A DNA stretch of 64,000 bases from Blastococcus sp. PRF04-17. Its GTDB lineage: Bacteria; Actinomycetota; Actinomycetes; Mycobacteriales; Geodermatophilaceae. Below the pieces are notes generated by a model that saw nothing but the letters and a program-made list of their open reading frames with translations, was not told the origin of the DNA and ran no database searches. Numbering within the stretch: the stretch's first letter is position 1; every line of letters begins with the position of its first letter. Below, one piece after another: positions 9,699 to 16,749 of this stretch. The stretch is from positions 1,612,001-1,676,000 of the forward strand of contig NZ_CP095412.1 in NCBI RefSeq assembly GCF_023016265.1, in the 5' to 3' direction. The position numbers and the translations under genes are program-made.

Positions 9699-10952
9699 TC
9701 AGCGGACGTGGCCGTTGCCGGTCACGACGTACGTGGTGGACGTGAGCTCGGGCAGGCCCAGGGGCCCGCGGGCGTGCAGCTTCTGCGTGGAGATGCCGAT
9801 TTCGGCACCGAACCCGAACTCCCCGCCGTCGGTGAACCGCGTCGAGGCGTTCACCAGGACGGCGGCGGCGTCCACCCCGGCGACGAAGTCGGCGATCGCG
9901 GTGGCGGAGTCGGCGACGATGGCCTCGCTGTGCCCGCTCCCCCAGCGCGCGATGTGATCCAGTGCCGACGGGAGGTCGTCGACGACCCGCACCGCCATGT
10001 CCATCGACAGGTACTCGGTCGCCCAGTCCTCGTCGGTGGCGGGGACGACCGACGGATGGGCCGCCCGGGCGGCGGGATCACCGTGGAGGGTCACCCCGGC
10101 GTCGGCCAGCGCCGCCAAGAGCCGCGGCAGGTACGGGACGTCGCGGTGGACGAGCAGCGTCTCGGCGGAGTTGCAGACGCTCACCCGGTGGGTCTTCGCG
10201 TTGAGGACGATCGCCTCGGCCATGGCCGCGTCGGCCGACGCGTCGACGTAGACGTGGCAGTTGCCGACGCCGGTCTCGATCACCGGCACCGTCGACTCGC
10301 GGACCACCCGCTCGATCAGCGAGGCGCCACCGCGGGGGATCACGACGTCGACGACGCCGCGGGCGTTCAGCAGCTCGCCCACCGACGCGCGGTCGGCGGG
10401 CAGCAGCTCGACGAAGCCCTCGGGCAGCCCTGCCTTCGCGCCGGCCTCGCGCAACACCTCGACCAGCGCGGTGTTCGTGCCGAACGCCGATGCCGAGCCG
10501 CGGAGCAGGGCCGCGTTGCCGCTCTTGAGGCAGAGCCCGGCGGCGTCGACGGTCACGTTGGGTCGGGCCTCGTAGACGATGCCCACGACGCCGAGCGGCA
10601 CGCGGACCTGGCGCAGCTGCAGCCCGTTCGGCAGCCGCGAGCCGCGGACGACGTCCCCGACCGGGTCGGGCAGCGCGACCAGCTGGCGCAGCGCGTCGGC
10701 GACCCCGGCGACGCGGCCGGCGTCCAGCCGCAGCCGGTCGAGGATCGACTCCGGCGTCCCGTCGGCCCGCGCGGCCGCCACGTCGGCGGCGTTGGCGGAA
10801 AGGAGCTCGTCGGCGCGCCTCACCAGCGCGTCGGCCATCGCGGCCAGCGCGGCGTCCTTGGCGTCGGTGGGCAGGGTGCGCAGCACCCGGGCGGCCGACC
10901 GTGCACGGAGCGCGGCGGCGCCGATCAGCGGCAGGTCGGAGACGTCGGACAC
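9699..10952 (-). CDS. proA: Gamma-glutamyl phosphate reductase
   Basis: Second step of proline synthesis: reduces glutamyl-5-phosphate to glutamate semialdehyde. 417 residues from the GTG at 10952 ([20 protein letters not shown]). An ATG at 11045 in frame would add 31 atypical residues and cross the divergent zinc promoter, so I reject it. Catalytic Cys is in [34 protein letters not shown] and [15 protein letters not shown] are signatures. proB lies about 15 kb away, past the zinc block, although the two usually adjoin. Confidence 0.95.
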
Positions 10953-11000
10953 GAAGCGAGGGTACGCGGAGACGGTCGAACCACCGGCGGGAACCTGGCC

Positions 11001-11017
11001 GGCGGAACGGTTCCGCC
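11001..11017. promoter_or_regulatory. Perfect inverted repeat between proA and znuA
   Basis: GGCGGAACGGTTCCGCC has 8-base arms around one central base. It is about 20 bases before the Zur-box candidate and about 50 bases upstream of the proA start. It may be an operator or, in RNA, a small hairpin. No regulator can be named. Confidence 0.45.
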
Positions 11018-11023
11018 GCTGTG

Positions 11024-11040
11024 TGAGAATGATTCCCATG
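11024..11040. promoter_or_regulatory. Zur-box candidate overlapping the znuA start codon
   Basis: TGAGAATGATTCCCATG, an imperfect palindrome (TGAGAA / TTCCCA). The identical 17 bases occur in reverse at 16422-16438 before the COG0523 and ribosomal-protein operons, so both probably bind the Zur encoded at 13887. GAGAAT (11025-11030) is placed as a -10 element with the ATG at 11038 seven bases further on, the geometry of a leaderless transcript. Zur binding would cover the -10 and the start. Confidence 0.75.
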
Positions 11041-12054
11041 GCCACTTCCGTACATCACCGGACCACACTGGCGGCCGCTTCGGCCGCCGCCCTCCTGCTC
11101 GCCGGTTGCGGCGACGACGGTCGGGCTCAGAGCGGCTCCGACGGCGGGCTGGACGTCGTCGCCGGCTTCTATCCGCTGCAGTGGGCCACCGAACGCATCG
11201 GCGGCGACCGGGTCTCGGTGTCGTCGGCCACCCCACCGGGCGGTGAGCCGCACGACCTCGAGCTGACGCCCCGCGACGTCGCCGTGGTCTCGGAGGCCGA
11301 TCTCGTCGTGTACCTGGCGGGCTTCCAGCCCGCCCTCGACGAGGCCGTGCAGTCCGAGGCCGGCGACCGGGCCTGGGACGCCGGGCAGGCGGCAGACCTC
11401 TCACTGACCTCCGAAGGCGAGGGTCACACCGACGACGAGGGCCACACCGACGACGAGGGCCACACCGACGACGAGGGCCACACCGACGACGAGGGCCACA
11501 CCGACGACGAGGGCCACGCGCACGAGGAGGGAGCGGCCGACCCTCACTTCTGGCTGGACCCGACCCGGCTCGCCGCCGTGGGGGACGCGCTCGCCGAGCG
11601 GCTGACCGAACTCGACCCGGAGGGCGAGTCGACCTATGAGGAGAACGCCGCAGCGCTGCGTGCCGAGCTCGAGGCGCTGGACCAGGAGATGCAGGCCGGA
11701 CTCGCGGACTGCGCCGTGACCACCCTGGTCACGAGCCATGACGCCTTCGGGTACCTCGCGGATCGGTACGGTCTGGAGGTGGTCGGCATCAGCGGGCTGA
11801 GCCCCTCGCAGGAGCCTCGGCCCTCGCAGCTCGCGGAGATCGCCACCCTGGTCGGCGACCGCGGCGTCACCACCGTCTACACCGAGACGCTGGTGGATCC
11901 GGCCGTCGCCGAGACCGTCGCGCAGGAGGCGGGGGTGCAGACCGCCGTCCTCGACCCGCTGGAGGGGCTGACCGACGAGTCGGCGGGCGACGACTACGTC
12001 CAGGTGATGCGCGCCAATCTCGCGACCCTCCAGGAGGGCCAGTCCTGTTCATGA
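11038..12054 (+). CDS. znuA: Zinc ABC transporter substrate-binding lipoprotein
   Basis: Captures zinc outside the cell for ZnuBC. 338 residues with a lipoprotein signal ending LLLAGCGDD (about residue 24). The likely zinc ligands are His in [18 protein letters not shown] and [15 protein letters not shown] and the acid in VYTETLVDP. Between the lobes is a His/Asp loop made of five GHTDDE repeats ending GHAHEEG, the ZnuA-type metal-rich loop. ATG 11038 has no Shine-Dalgarno and lies inside the Zur box; an ATG at 11029 would add MIP. The stop overlaps znuC (ATGA). Confidence 0.93.
11422..11511 (+). repeat. 18-base tandem repeat encoding GHTDDE x5 in znuA
   Basis: Five consecutive 18-base units (ggccacaccgacgacgag; the first has ggt for ggc) starting at 11422, 11440, 11458, 11476 and 11494. 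Near-perfect identity points to recent slippage expansion. Each unit adds one His and three acidic residues to the metal-rich loop. A repeat like this could also be miscounted in assembly. Confidence 0.9.
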
Positions 12055-12860
12055 CCGCCACGCCCGGCGAGGACCTCGCCGTCCGCATCCGCGACGCCAG
12101 CATCGGCTACGGCGACGTGCCGATCCTCGGCGGCCTCGACCTGACCGTCGGCCGGGGCGAGGCGCTCGCCGTCCTCGGCTCGAACGGCTCCGGGAAGACG
12201 ACGCTGGCCCGCGGCCTGCTCGGCCTCGCCACCGTGCTCGGTGGCGAGGTCGCCGTGCTCGGTGCACCGGTCGGGCGACGGCGCGAGCGGGGCCGGGTGG
12301 GCTACGTCCCGCAGCGCCACACGGTCAGCGGAGCGGTACCGGCCACGGTCCGGGAGGTCGTCTCCGTGGGCCGGCTCGCGCGCAAGGGGCTCCTCCGCCG
12401 GCTCGGCCCTGTCGACCGCGCCGCCGTCGGCGAGGCCGTCGCGGCGGTCGGTCTCGCCGACCGGATGGAGGAGCCGGTCGCCTCGCTGTCCGGCGGCCAG
12501 CAGCGCCGGGTGCTCGTCGCACGCGCCCTGGCCGCCCAGCCCGAGCTGCTGATCATGGACGAGCCCACCGCCGGGGTGGACGCCGCGAGCCAGCAGGCCC
12601 TGGCCGGCGTGCTCGCCCAGGTGTCGGCCGCCGGCACCACCCTCCTCGTCGTGACCCACGAGGCCGGGCCGCTGTCGGGGGTGCTGACCCGGGCCGTCGT
12701 CGTCGACCACGGCCGGATCCGCTACGACGGTCCGCTGCCGGAGGCGGCTGCGCACGGCGGCCACGGCGACGAGCACTGCGCCGAGCCGGAGCCGCCGGTG
12801 CGGGGATACCGGCTGGACCAGCCCACCGTCTCCGTCCGGACGGCCGGCGGGGGACGATGA
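12051..12860 (+). CDS. znuC: Zinc ABC transporter ATP-binding protein
   Basis: Energises zinc import. 269 residues. Walker A is LGSNGSGKTTL (about residue 44), signature LSGGQQRRV, Walker B LLIMDEPTAG, H-loop VVTHEAG. The C-terminal extension after the ATPase domain holds a short HGGHGDEHCAE metal-binding-looking stretch. It overlaps znuA by four bases and ends just before the znuB GTG, so one operon. Confidence 0.95.
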   Translation: MTATPGEDLAVRIRDASIGYGDVPILGGLDLTVGRGEALAVLGSNGSGKTTLARGLLGLATVLGGEVAVLGAPVGRRRERGRVGYVPQRHTVSGAVPATVREVVSVGRLARKGLLRRLGPVDRAAVGEAVAAVGLADRMEEPVASLSGGQQRRVLVARALAAQPELLIMDEPTAGVDAASQQALAGVLAQVSAAGTTLLVVTHEAGPLSGVLTRAVVVDHGRIRYDGPLPEAAAHGGHGDEHCAEPEPPVRGYRLDQPTVSVRTAGGGR

Positions 12861-12861
12861 C

Positions 12862-13890
12862 GTGGAGATCCTCGAGTACGGATTCATGCAGCGGGCGCTG
12901 CTCGCATCGCTGATGGTCGGCCTGGTCGCGCCGGCGGTCGGCGTCTTCCTGGTCCAGCGGCGACTGTCGCTGCTCGGCGACGGCCTGGGGCACGTCGCGC
13001 TGACCGGTGTCGGCATCGGCGTCCTCACGTCGACGGCGCCGGTCGGCGCCGCTCTGGTCGCCGCGGTCCTCGGTGCGGTGCTCATCGAACTGGTGCGGGC
13101 CCGCGGTCGCACCAGCGGTGACGTCGCGCTCGCCGTCCTGTTCTACGGCGGCATCGCCGGCGGCGTGGTGCTGCTCAGCCTCGCCCCCCGCGGTCAGGCG
13201 ACCAATCTGGAGGCCTACCTCTTCGGGGCGATCACGACGACCAGCAACGCCGACCTCGCCGTCTTCGCGGTCATCACCGTGGCCGTGCTCGCCGTCGTCG
13301 GCCTGCTCGGTGCCCGGCTGTACGCGGTCAGCGACGACGAGGAGTACGCCCGCGCGGTCGGGCTGCCCGTGCTCGGCCTCAACGTCGTGCTCGCCGCCCT
13401 CGTCGCGTGCACGGTGGTGCTCTCGATGCGCGTGGTCGGCCTGCTCCTGATCAGCGCGCTGATGATCGTGCCGAGCGCCGTCGCCCAGCTGTTGGCCCGC
13501 AGCTTCCGCCAGGCGCTGTTCCTGGCGTGCGCACTCGGCCTCGTGGTCAGCGTCTCGGGGACGGCGGCGTCCTACTACACCGGCACCCCGTCGGGTGGAA
13601 CCATCGTGCTGATCGCCATCGCGTTGTTCCTGACCGTCTCGGCGGGCGTGGCCCTGCGCGATGCGACCGCACGCCGCCGGCACCGTCGCCGCGGCGAGGT
13701 GCACGCCGCCCATCCACACGTCCACGGCGACGGCTGCGGGCACCCACCGGTGCGGCACGGCGACCATGTCGACTACGACCACGACGGCCACCTGCACGCA
13801 CCGCACCTGACCGGCGCGGGGGTCCACTACGACGAGCACGGCACGACCCGGCCGCCCGTCGAGCCGGCCGCCGCGAGGGAGACCCCGTGA
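12862..13890 (+). CDS. znuB: Zinc ABC transporter permease with His-rich tail
   Basis: Membrane channel of the zinc importer (ABC-3 family), about eight hydrophobic segments. It starts GTG 12862 (MEILEYGFMQRALLAS), typical of the family; GDGLGHVALTGVGIG and DDEEYARAVGLPV are recognisable. Unusually, after the last membrane segment (about residue 270) there is a cytoplasmic tail of some 70 residues with HAAHPHVHGDGCGH, HGDHVDYDHDGHLHAPH and GVHYDEHG, likely zinc-binding. The stop overlaps zur (GTGA). Confidence 0.94.
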   Translation: MEILEYGFMQRALLASLMVGLVAPAVGVFLVQRRLSLLGDGLGHVALTGVGIGVLTSTAPVGAALVAAVLGAVLIELVRARGRTSGDVALAVLFYGGIAGGVVLLSLAPRGQATNLEAYLFGAITTTSNADLAVFAVITVAVLAVVGLLGARLYAVSDDEEYARAVGLPVLGLNVVLAALVACTVVLSMRVVGLLLISALMIVPSAVAQLLARSFRQALFLACALGLVVSVSGTAASYYTGTPSGGTIVLIAIALFLTVSAGVALRDATARRRHRRRGEVHAAHPHVHGDGCGHPPVRHGDHVDYDHDGHLHAPHLTGAGVHYDEHGTTRPPVEPAAARETP

Positions 13891-14300
13891 GCACCACGGA
13901 CCCGGTCCAGGGGACGACGCGGCGACCGAGCCGGCAGCGCAGCGCCGTCCTGGCGCTGCTCGCCGACCTGGACGGCTTCCGGAGTGCGCAGGAGCTGCAC
14001 GCGCTGCTGCGGGAACGCGGTGACACCGTCGGCCTGGCCACCGTCTACCGGGCGCTGCAGGCCCTCGTGGACGACGGGCACCTGGACGTGCTGCGGAGCG
14101 CGGAGGGCGAGGCCTCCTACCGGCGGTGTTCGCCGGTGCACCACCATCACCTCGTCTGCCGCGGCTGCGGGACGACGGCCGAAGTCGCGGACCCTCCGGT
14201 GGAGCGCTGGGCGGCACGGGTCGCGGCCGAGCACGGGTTCGTCGACGTCCAGCACCAGGTGGAGGTCTTCGGCACCTGCGCCTCCTGCCGGACCGGCTGA
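13887..14300 (+). CDS. zur: Fur-family zinc uptake regulator
   Basis: 137-residue Fur-superfamily repressor at the end of the zinc import operon, so probably Zur. The winged helix is RQRSAVLALLADLDGFRSAQ with recognition helix region TVGLATVYRALQAL. Metal-site residues are in PVHHHHLVCRGCG and the C-terminal CASC, giving two CxxC pairs for structural zinc. It would repress its own operon and both flanking operons through the two identical boxes. The GTG start overlaps the znuB stop. Confidence 0.93.
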   Translation: MSTTDPVQGTTRRPSRQRSAVLALLADLDGFRSAQELHALLRERGDTVGLATVYRALQALVDDGHLDVLRSAEGEASYRRCSPVHHHHLVCRGCGTTAEVADPPVERWAARVAAEHGFVDVQHQVEVFGTCASCRTG

Positions 14301-14309
14301 TCGGGCCGC

Positions 14310-14693
14310 TCAGGTCGGCGACTGCATCCGCATGGGCGGTCCGAGCCCGGCGGCGGCCGGGACGAGGCTCGCCGGGAGCGTGCTGTCGGGCTGCCCCTCG
14401 GCCGCGGGTCCGCCGTCCCTGACCCACACCGCCAGCGCCTCGGCCCGAGACGGCTCGTGGACACCGGAGAGCCACACCGTGGCCCCGGAGCTGCGGCCCC
14501 CTCCGTCCCGGTGCGCGACCACCGCCACGGCTGCGGCAGTGCAGCGACCGAGGCAGGCCGTCGTGACGAGGACGGCGCCGCGCGAGCCCCGAACGGCGTC
14601 GCGGACCGGCAGCGCGCCCGCCCGCGTGGGCCGGAGGGCTGCGGCGCAGGCCGGCCCGAGGCAGAGCGCCACCACCGGGCCACCCGGGTCCAC
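14310..14693 (-). CDS. (2Fe-2S) thioredoxin-like ferredoxin domain protein
   Basis: About 127 residues with four cysteines as in thioredoxin-fold [2Fe-2S] ferredoxins: VVALCLGPACAAALRP near the N-terminus and VLVTTACLGRCTAAAVAVV some 30 residues later. It is the last gene of the minus-strand operon COG0523-rpmE2-rpmF, 13 bases after rpmF, so probably under the same Zur box. I took GTG 14693 (VDPGGPVVALCLG); the frame opens earlier, inside rpmF. Redox partner unknown. It lies 9 bases from the end of convergent zur. Confidence 0.7.
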   Translation of the reverse strand: MDPGGPVVALCLGPACAAALRPTRAGALPVRDAVRGSRGAVLVTTACLGRCTAAAVAVVAHRDGGGRSSGATVWLSGVHEPSRAEALAVWVRDGGPAAEGQPDSTLPASLVPAAAGLGPPMRMQSPT

Positions 14694-14706
14694 CCCCGCG
14701 CGGCGG

Positions 14707-14868
14707 TCACCGGAGGAGGCCCCGCTCGTACGCCCGGCGCAGGTTGGCCGGCACCAGTCGCTCCTGGCCATCGACCCGGATCCGCACCAGCTGGACCGGG
14801 ACGGCCTTCCACTGCGCCCGCCGGGATCGGGTGCGCGAGCGGGACATGCGTCGCTTCGGGACGGCCAC
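14707..14868 (-). CDS. rpmF: 50S ribosomal protein bL32, zinc-independent type
   Basis: 53 residues, beginning VAVPKRRMSRSRTRSRRAQW, the L32 signature. It has no cysteine, whereas zinc-binding bL32 has a four-Cys ribbon, so this is the zinc-free paralogue expected when zinc is scarce. GTG start 14868 is 3 bases after the bL31 stop. It ends with the RRAYERGLLR motif usual for the C-terminus. Confidence 0.9.
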   Translation of the reverse strand: MAVPKRRMSRSRTRSRRAQWKAVPVQLVRIRVDGQERLVPANLRRAYERGLLR

Positions 14869-14871
14869 CGG

Positions 14872-15123
14872 TCAGCCCTCCGTGGGGAGGCCGTAGCGAC
14901 GGCGGAACTTCTCGACCCGGCCGGCGCTGTCGACCACCCGCTGGGTGCCGGTCCAGAAGGGGTGGGAGGCCGCGCTGATGTCGACGACCACCAGCGGGTA
15001 GCTGCGCCCGTCCACCTCCACCGTCTGGTCGGTGGCCACGGTCGACCGCGTGCGGTACAGGGCGCCGCTGGCCGCGTCCCGGAAGACGACGTCGCGGCAC
15101 TCGGGATGGATGCCGTGCTTCAT
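14872..15123 (-). CDS. rpmE2: 50S ribosomal protein bL31 type B (zinc-independent)
   Basis: 83 residues of the longer type B bL31: [20 protein letters not shown] at the start, then [26 protein letters not shown]. It lacks the CxxC of zinc-binding type A. Replacement of type A by type B under zinc starvation frees zinc and is Zur-controlled in other bacteria. The ATG overlaps the COG0523 stop (ATGA), so translation is probably coupled. Confidence 0.95.
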
Positions 15124-16403
15124 CGGGAACGTTCCTCTCGGTCGGGCTCGGTGGTGGCGCCGGTCCGGTCGTCGACCGGGGTGGAGGCCTCGCAGGGGTC
15201 CTCGTGCCAGGTGCCGAAGGGGTCGGGGAGCGTGCGCCAGTCATCCGGGCCGGCCGCCAGCTCCTCGTCGGTCAGCAGGGCCGCCTCCAGCGCCGCGATC
15301 ACCGCGACGGCGGGCTGTCGGTGCGACAGGACGACGAGTTCGGTGTGCCGGTCGCCGTACCGGGCATCCCATCTCAGCGCTGCGGCCACGCGCCGCTGAG
15401 GAGCCACGTCGCGCCACGCGTCCGGGTGGTCCGGCAAGGTCGCCAGCCAGGGGCCGGCGTCGCCGACGCGCAACCCCTGGCCCGCCGACTCCAGCCAGAC
15501 GGCCCGGTCGTGCTGACTGGCCAACCACAGCCGCCCGCGGCTGCAGACCACGCCCTCCAGGAGCACGTCGAGGGCCTCGTGCAGGCGACCCGGGTGGAAC
15601 GGCCGACCGGCGGAGTACCGGACGAGTCCGACGCCGACGTCCTCGCCGAGCGGCGGCTCGCCCGGGAGCAGGGGGTCGAAGGCCGTGGAGAGCCGACCGC
15701 GCCGGGAGTCCCGCGGAATGGCTGCCAGCAACCGCTCGGGCCCGACAGCGGTCTGCGCCCTCGGCACGCCGGCCACCAGCCGGTCGAGCACCGCATGCAG
15801 CCGGGCACTGGTCCAGGCGTCCAGCGGACCGCCGGCCAGCAGCACCGCGTCGGCGAAGGCGACCTGTCCCAGCGCGACCTGCGCCAGGGAGCGGTCGTCG
15901 TCCGGCGTCGCCGCGAGGGCACGGTCGGCCAGGTCGTCACCGCCCGTGACGTCGTCCAGCCACGTGGCTCCGTCGATCACCGCCAGCACCCCGGTCACGT
16001 CGACGAAGTCGCCGGCGACCTCCGGTGCGCCCTCCGGTTCGTCGTCGAGCACCACGTTCGCGATGGCCCAGCACAGGTGTTCCGGCTCCAACGCGGGATC
16101 GAGGTGCAGGGCGATCCGGGTGACGTCGCGGCGGCGGCCCAGCTCGCGGAGAAGAGGCAGGAGGTCGAGGCGGAGCGTGCAGGACACGCAGCCGTGGGCC
16201 AGTTCCACGGCAGTCGTCTCCTCGACCACGACGCCGGCGCGGCGGCGGCGGAGTGTCCGGACGACCACGCCTTCGCCGAGCCGCGTCACGTCGTGGTGGA
16301 TCAGCACCGTTCCCGGTCGGTCGAGCAACGCCGAGGCCACCCGGGCCGAGTCGGCCGCCCGGAGACCGGTCACGAGCACCAGGGGCGTGTCTGCCGCAGT
16401 CAT
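15120..16403 (-). CDS. COG0523 (CobW/ZNG1-like) protein lacking a P-loop
   Basis: COG0523 members are putative zinc chaperone GTPases. This one resembles the actinobacterial Rv0106-like branch. The metal motif [16 protein letters not shown] is a variant of the usual GCxCC; the C-terminal CobW domain is seen in [19 protein letters not shown] and GRLWLASQ. The N-terminus reads [19 protein letters not shown], with no GxxxxGK[ST], so ordinary GTP binding is doubtful. ATG 16403 gives MTAADTPLV; an in-frame ATG at 16424 inside the Zur box would add seven residues as a leaderless start. First gene of the operon with rpmE2 and rpmF. Confidence 0.9.
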
Positions 16404-16421
16404 ACCGGCCACCCTACTGCA

Positions 16422-16438
16422 CATGGGAATCATTCTCA
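16422..16438. promoter_or_regulatory. Zur-box candidate between divergent zinc-stress operons
   Basis: Read on the minus strand this is TGAGAATGATTCCCATG, identical over 17 bases to 11024-11040. It sits in the 79-base gap between the COG0523 operon (minus) and rpmB (plus), so one bound Zur could silence both. On the minus strand GAGAAT is again seven bases from an ATG (16424-16422). On the plus strand TAGGGT at 16441 could be the -10 for rpmB. Confidence 0.78.
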
Positions 16439-16482
16439 TCTAGGGTTATCGGCGTCCCGACTCCCCACGACTGGAGACGATC

Positions 16483-16749
16483 ATGGCCACCTACTGCGAG
16501 GTGACCGGCCGCAGGCCTGGCTTCGGCAAGGCAGTCAGCCACTCGCACCGGCGCACCAGCCGGCGGTTCGACCCCAACCTGCAGCGCAAGCGCTTCTTCC
16601 TGCCGTCGGAGAACCGCTGGGTCAGGCTGACCGTGTCGGCCAAGGGCATCAAGACGATCGACGCCCAGGGCATCGAGGCGGTCATCGCCCGGCTGCGCGC
16701 CACCGACCCCGACGTCCGCCGTCGGCTGGGCGCCGGGCGGGACGCCTGA
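16483..16749 (+). CDS. rpmB: 50S ribosomal protein bL28, zinc-independent type
   Basis: 88 residues: [20 protein letters not shown], then [18 protein letters not shown], plainly bL28. Only one cysteine remains (Cys5) where zinc-binding bL28 has CxxC pairs. First gene of the plus-strand operon rpmB-rpmG-rpsN-rpsR behind the Zur box. A GGAGA Shine-Dalgarno lies upstream of ATG 16483. The stop overlaps rpmG (TGATG). Confidence 0.95.

Follow-up and report, generated by a model that had tools for sequence, protein, structure and literature searches.

A Zur box probably fused with the promoter and start codon of znuA, and its identical copy as a probable ordinary operator, in Blastococcus sp. PRF04-17

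In a 64,000-nucleotide stretch of DNA from Blastococcus sp. PRF04-17 (hereafter the window, meaning the whole 64-kb stretch that was analysed), we studied two identical candidate boxes for the zinc-dependent repressor Zur. One precedes the znuA-znuC-znuB operon, which ends in a Fur-family gene, and the other lies between mrf, a COG0523 gene, and the genes for ribosomal proteins L28, L33 and S14. For znuA, a single element very probably unites operator, promoter, transcription start and start codon, as far as conservation and spacing tell, whereas the same interpretation fails for the COG0523 gene. The identical boxes thus appear to do different jobs, the znuA box as a fused promoter and start element and the mrf box as an ordinary operator.

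The 17-mer TGAGAATGATTCCCATG was found at 11024-11040 on the plus strand and at 16422-16438 on the minus strand, with no mismatch between the copies. The window held no further site even when up to three mismatches were allowed, none appeared in 100 dinucleotide-preserving shuffles, and the pair is real and far beyond chance. In the whole genome (4.59 Mb, one contig), these two were the only exact copies, and four further matches had two or three mismatches, two of which come from a single palindromic box at C1:1799375 read on either strand. Except for one base (C for T at position 13), both sites fit the 15-bp actinobacterial palindrome tGaNNatSatNNtCa, given in the available text of PMC5472717 as the Zur consensus of Streptomyces coelicolor. 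Both stand upstream of expected Zur-type targets, namely zinc uptake genes, COG0523 and ribosomal paralogue genes, and are candidate Zur boxes by sequence and gene context. In each copy GAGAAT stands 7 nt ahead of an in-frame ATG, at 11038 for znuA and at 16424 for the COG0523 gene, where the frame reads MCSRVAGM. An earlier reading made from the sequence alone (the sequence-only reading) had described these two identical 17-base boxes, the GAGAAT seven bases before a frame-opening ATG at both genes and a znuA lacking a Shine-Dalgarno sequence; all three observations were confirmed, the last by eye, with no Shine-Dalgarno-like stretch seen before ATG 11038. It had missed that conservation at znuA extends two bases further upstream, to 11022, and that the stretch separating the second box from ATG 16403 contains a TAGGGT.

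Conservation of the znuA element was followed through 112 genomes of the window's family, in which a protein search found 73 znuA rows, spread over 70 genomes. The box ended in the start codon in 57 rows (56 by script and G101 added on reading; column counts use the 56 aligned rows), it lay on the -35 in 14, one row was tandem (G032) and one had no called box (G024). The 57 fused rows came from three genera, with 10 in g1, 25 in g5 and 22 in g12. A strict pattern, TGNGANAATGRTTNYCATG, matched 57 times, in 54 of the 112 genomes, and each match lay in frame at a znuA start; its reversed control gave none in the same genomes. Across the aligned rows, TG at -16/-15, GANAAT at -13 to -8 with its final T, and the ATG were invariant (56/56 each). 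Position -14 was free (C27 T24 A3 G2); the Zur palindrome would want T there, whereas TGn allows any n. Columns -19 to -49 reached at most 0.6 bit and contained no conserved -35, upstream -10 or Shine-Dalgarno sequence, and at spacings of 16-19 no TTGACA match exceeded 4/6 in any family row. The element therefore has the two marks of an extended -10, TGn directly before the hexamer and no conserved -35. Its hexamer, GAGAAT or GATAAT, lacks the form TANNNT, the mycobacterial -10 consensus (PMC3898074, available text), in that A2 and T6 are kept and T1 is replaced by G, as the box demands. Boxes of znuA and of mrf in the family differed in precisely these features: the hexamer-end T was present in 56/56 znuA boxes vs 13/26 mrf boxes, the other 13 having C (Fisher 2e-8, kinship ignored), and TG preceded the box in 56/56 vs 0/26 (Fisher 6e-22, kinship ignored).

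Families outside that of the window were searched with a class-wide pattern, GANAAYGRTTNTCATG, which gave 53 matches in 49 of 394 genomes (reversed control, 2). Fifty of the 53 were inspected; 22 open a znuA-like frame, 21 of these being confirmed by Pfam ZnuA, and 28 do not. For the -35 counts, L041 (family f11), found earlier, was added after inspection, making 23 outside rows chosen as znuA. A TTGACA match of at least 5/6 lay 17-18 nt before GANAAT in 21 of the 23 (13 perfect, eight 5/6, and the remaining two at 4/6 and 3/6). Among the 28 non-znuA matches it never rose above 4/6, so that 0/28 reached 5/6, and likewise 0/56 of the family rows did. TGn before the hexamer showed the reverse distribution, with 56/56 family rows vs 1/23 outside rows. 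The hexamer ended in AAT in all 23 outside znuA rows, and AAC was counted by eye in 19 of the 28 non-znuA matches. Because TTGACA occurs at the proper spacing outside the family, and because the hexamer-end T is fixed only in znuA boxes, GANAAT seems to behave as the -10 hexamer of znuA. In rows outside the window's clade the hexamer would be part of an ordinary -35/-10 pair, and inside the clade TGn would replace the -35. The claim of the sequence-only reading that one znuA element acts as -10, operator, transcription start and translation start is supported by both comparisons; the replacement of the -35 by TGn had gone unnoticed there.

The gap of 7 nt between hexamer and ATG suits initiation at the A of the start codon. 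Mycobacterial transcription starts favour a purine after C and before T (PMC3898074, available text), and the A of the znuA ATG is preceded by C and followed by T. Mapping in Corynebacterium glutamicum placed the transcription starts of two Zur-repressed znu genes, cg0042 and cg2911, at the A of the start codon ATG (PMC2823685, available parts); cg0043 is also named in that text as such a start, and the figure legend calls it deduced. From the spacing, znuA of the window is likewise predicted to be leaderless, with transcription beginning at its start codon, measured starts of this kind being those of the C. glutamicum znu genes only.

Several observations weigh against this interpretation of znuA. 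The 57 fused rows all belong to a single clade (32 of them were in the tree, with 99/96 support) and are not independent; Fisher values ignore their kinship. The search itself partly selected box positions but left TG, the hexamer-end base and the flanks free. In 14 of the 23 outside rows a second Zur box includes the TTGACA; of the nine rows with no upstream Zur box, seven still reach 5/6, a level attained by 0.6% of shuffled flanks. A TANNNT 6-8 nt before the start was seen in 2 of 50 gene-like open reading frames of the window, one of them mrf (the choice of genes was crude and missed proA), and this small sample gave no sign of a general leaderless habit. GAGAAT has G instead of T at the first -10 position, and such a weak hexamer speaks for a promoter upstream of the box, with the box as a roadblock-type operator in a leader and the nearness of the ATG incidental. 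An unconserved promoter of this sort could exist in a single genome, but columns -19 to -49 yielded no conserved candidate in 56 rows in which TGnGANAAT is fixed, other families place TTGACA at the right distance for GANAAT, and a leader would have no visible Shine-Dalgarno sequence; we consider this alternative quite unlikely. A GAGGGTA far upstream of znuA, kept in several relatives (by eye), was rejected as a znuA promoter, being the -10 of the divergent proA on the other strand. Still less probable is translation from an internal in-frame ATG at 11029, in which case the conserved AATG would be a codon rather than the end of a -10. That ATG is invariant in the family (56/56 rows). Against it, seven Nocardioidaceae rows among the best 80 of 564 loci carry GAGAATCGTTCTCATG, with AATC in place of the internal ATG, and keep GAGAAT and the last ATG; the last ATG is therefore taken as the znuA start. 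C. glutamicum also uses the last ATG (PMC2823685, available parts), and nothing resembling a -10 is conserved before 11029.

At the second site, the COG0523 product was identified as the MRF GTPase (NCBIfam NF047431, 521 bits vs a cut-off of 375), and 26 mrf rows from the 112 family genomes were compared. A TANNNT lay 7-9 nt past the box and 6-8 nt ahead of the mrf start in 25 of 26 rows (exception G107, L160), and another stood on the L28 side, 2-3 nt from the box, also in 25/26. With TANNNT on both flanks, the box is therefore best read as an operator shared by divergent promoters, and mrf is probably leaderless from ATG 16403. The sequence-only reading had instead made mrf leaderless from the box ATG at 16424, with GAGAAT as -10. 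In this genome GAGAAT-N7-ATG is indeed present and no stop interrupts the frame between 16424 and 16403, but only two of the 26 rows, G085 and this genome, have the box-end ATG, 13 carry an in-frame stop between the box and the mrf start, the downstream start has its own TANNNT and TG precedes the box in none; that start was rejected, and we find it hardly credible. The same reading had named a COG0523 start only at 16403, on a leadered RNA, as the outcome that would count against it. The start at 16403 agrees with our comparison, whereas the RNA is probably leaderless. Translation from 16403 on a leadered RNA would find some footing in the purine-rich TAGGGTGG ahead of the ATG, whose GGGTGG might act as a weak ribosome site; yet a hexamer with the form and spacing of a -10 is found in 25/26 rows while the bases after it vary, and we judge a leadered mrf unlikely. 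In G018, the L28 ATG lies 8 nt after TAAGGT (by eye) and looks leaderless, unlike the leadered L28 of the window.

The position of the box also varied among relatives. In genera g7 (11 rows) and g6 (3 rows), the box lies on the -35, TTGACA is present in 14/14 and the ATG follows 19-21 nt past the box; in G032 (g9, L039) both places are occupied, and the second box is degenerate. In a tree of 58 ZnuA rows, 32 fused-TGn rows fell on one side of one branch (99/96), and the row nearest to this clade was G164, from another family, which has a fused box together with a TTGACG -35 (94/87). Rows of the tree were hand-chosen, its deep branches are weak and 14 of 55 inner branches are unresolved. On balance we lean towards a joint reading of these data. 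In one three-genus clade, a repressor site, a complete promoter (extended -10 and no -35) and the starts of both transcription and translation of znuA would fit into 19 bp, the -35 having been traded for TGn, and the nearest sampled relative, G164, keeping its -35 with a fused box. Across Actinomycetes, the Zur box would have shifted its place on a leaderless znuA promoter that itself stayed fixed (TTGACA-N17/18-hexamer-N6/7-ATG), covering the -35 only, both parts, or the -10 and start only.

We propose that the zinc-loaded Fur-family repressor encoded by the last gene of the znu operon, presumed to be Zur, binds the 15-bp palindrome that would itself be the znuA core promoter. GAGAAT within the box would be the -10, and TG two bases before it would complete an extended -10 needing no -35; the closing A of the palindrome would serve at once as +1 of the RNA and as first base of the znuA ATG. 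RNA polymerase and Zur could then not share the site. When zinc is scarce, Zur would leave and a leaderless znuA mRNA would be made, its first codon being the end of the operator. Between mrf and rpmB, the identical box would be a conventional operator flanked by divergent TAGGGT -10 hexamers, with mrf leaderless from 16403 and not from 16424. We hold this whole explanation, a fused znuA element together with a conventional mrf/rpmB operator, with considerable confidence. It rests on sequence conservation, spacing, frame and phylogenetic pattern, from which we infer the transcription starts, Zur binding, zinc response and exclusion of polymerase. The features concerned are listed in Table 1.

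Table 1 Features of the znuA and mrf/rpmB loci, in positions of the 64-kb window
Feature	Position	Strand	Basis
Fused znuA element TGTGAGAATGATTCCCATG	11022..11040	+	Family pattern counts and column counts; -10 and transcription-start roles predicted
Extended -10 TG (putative)	11022-11023	+	Part of fused znuA element
-10 GAGAAT (putative)	11025-11030	+	Part of fused znuA element; role predicted
7-nt spacer	11031-11037	+	Part of fused znuA element
znuA start codon ATG, predicted transcription start	11038-11040	+	Part of fused znuA element
Candidate Zur box, 15-mer within fused element	11024..11038	+	Consensus fit; exact copy at 16424-16438
znuA, zinc ABC transporter substrate-binding lipoprotein	11038..12054	+	Pfam ZnuA 2.2e-81
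znuC, ABC transporter ATPase	12051..12860	+	Pfam ABC_tran 1.5e-27
znuB, ABC-3 permease	12862..13890	+	Pfam ABC-3 6.9e-62
Fur-family regulator, last gene of operon, presumed Zur	13887..14300	+	Pfam FUR 9.5e-29
mrf (COG0523 GTPase), start ATG 16403-16401	15120..16403	-	NCBIfam NF047431; start from 26 relatives
mrf -10 TAGGGT (putative), 7 nt before ATG 16403	16411..16416	-	Conservation in relatives
Second candidate Zur box, putative shared operator of divergent mrf and rpmB (L28) promoters	16424..16438	-	Exact copy of znuA box
-10 TAGGGT (putative) of divergent ribosomal protein operon, 2 nt from box	16441..16446	+	Conservation in relatives
rpmB (L28), leadered here, GGAG at 16473-16476	16483..16749	+	Pfam L28 3.2e-25; Shine-Dalgarno by eye

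The Fur-family protein reached the cut-off of no NCBIfam model (the Zur model PRK11639 scored 49.8 bits vs a cut-off of 167), and it is presumed to be Zur from its operon position. Just 5' of the znuA element, a perfect inverted repeat, CGGCGGAAC-G-GTTCCGCCG, occupies 11000-11018 in a region not kept in relatives. The divergent proA (10950-10964, minus strand) has TACCCT 6 nt before GTG 10952 and may also be leaderless. Within ZnuA, a histidine-rich loop at about 11420-11530 consists of near-identical tandem repeats (HTDDEG) and is likely variable in length. Elsewhere in the same genome, the box at C1:1799375 is a third strong Zur box, the palindromic TGAGAATGATTCTCA, ahead of a gene for an AztD-like zinc chaperone (NCBIfam AztD, 425 bits vs a cut-off of 400); a -10-like TAGGGT follows it by 7 nt, the aztD start has a leader with AGGAGG, and a second znuA-like gene at 1800761-1801600 also lies after this box. 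Among the relatives, G009, G012 and G068 each have two fused znuA copies, every copy with its own box-start element, and the znuA of G024 is perhaps read from an upstream ribosomal gene. An early stop in znuA after the fused box of Nocardioides sp. B-3 (L202) and an in-frame stop reported within mrf of G130 (L153) may each reflect a pseudogene or a sequencing error.

A fused element that works as proposed would come close to the shortest complete regulated gene start possible, 19 bp with each base constrained several times over, and the 19-mer alone should make any gene zinc-repressed and leaderless. The relatives would offer a natural series (box at the -35, at both places, or at the -10 and start) for how operator position sets repression tightness, and the same znuA series suits the question of how an extended -10 comes to replace a -35 in a promoter. 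A start codon inside a regulator box appears real at znuA and accidental at mrf, two actinobacterial sites within 6 kb of each other, and comparison of relatives can tell which.

A literature search, with most subscription papers outside its reach, returned no description of a Zur box containing a start codon. Several parts of the arrangement have counterparts in known systems, the sources cited here being available in part. Leaderless actinobacterial genes have, as here, a -10 hexamer shortly upstream of the start codon, and a TGN extended -10, associated with stronger promoters in Mycobacterium tuberculosis, has also been described (PMC3898074, PMC3160421). The described leaderless genes carry TANNNT and no operator, whereas the putative hexamer of znuA is a half-site of a repressor palindrome. 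The znuA of S. coelicolor has a 15-bp box of the same consensus with zinc-dependent repression in vitro, and its two Zur boxes resemble the tandem arrangement in 14 of the 23 outside rows (PMC5472717). The mrf locus is ordinary among divergent Zur-controlled mrf and alternative ribosomal protein operons, in which COG0523/Mrf and the neighbouring L28, L33 and S14 share a Zur box. According to PMC2823685, ribosomal protein paralogues are under Zur control in Mycobacterium and Streptomyces. The znu operons of C. glutamicum (cg0042, cg2911) are Zur-repressed, as predicted for znuA here, and have the Zur motif over the core promoter (PMC2823685). Their Zur sites are described as covering either the -35 or all of the -10/-35 region, and the cg2911 motif (TGTTGACATCC...) has TTGACA and no ATG, unlike the box of the window, which runs through the start codon and lacks a -35. 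Leaderless Zur-controlled znu genes are thus already known in C. glutamicum (PMC2823685), and a box running through the start codon is the variant found here.

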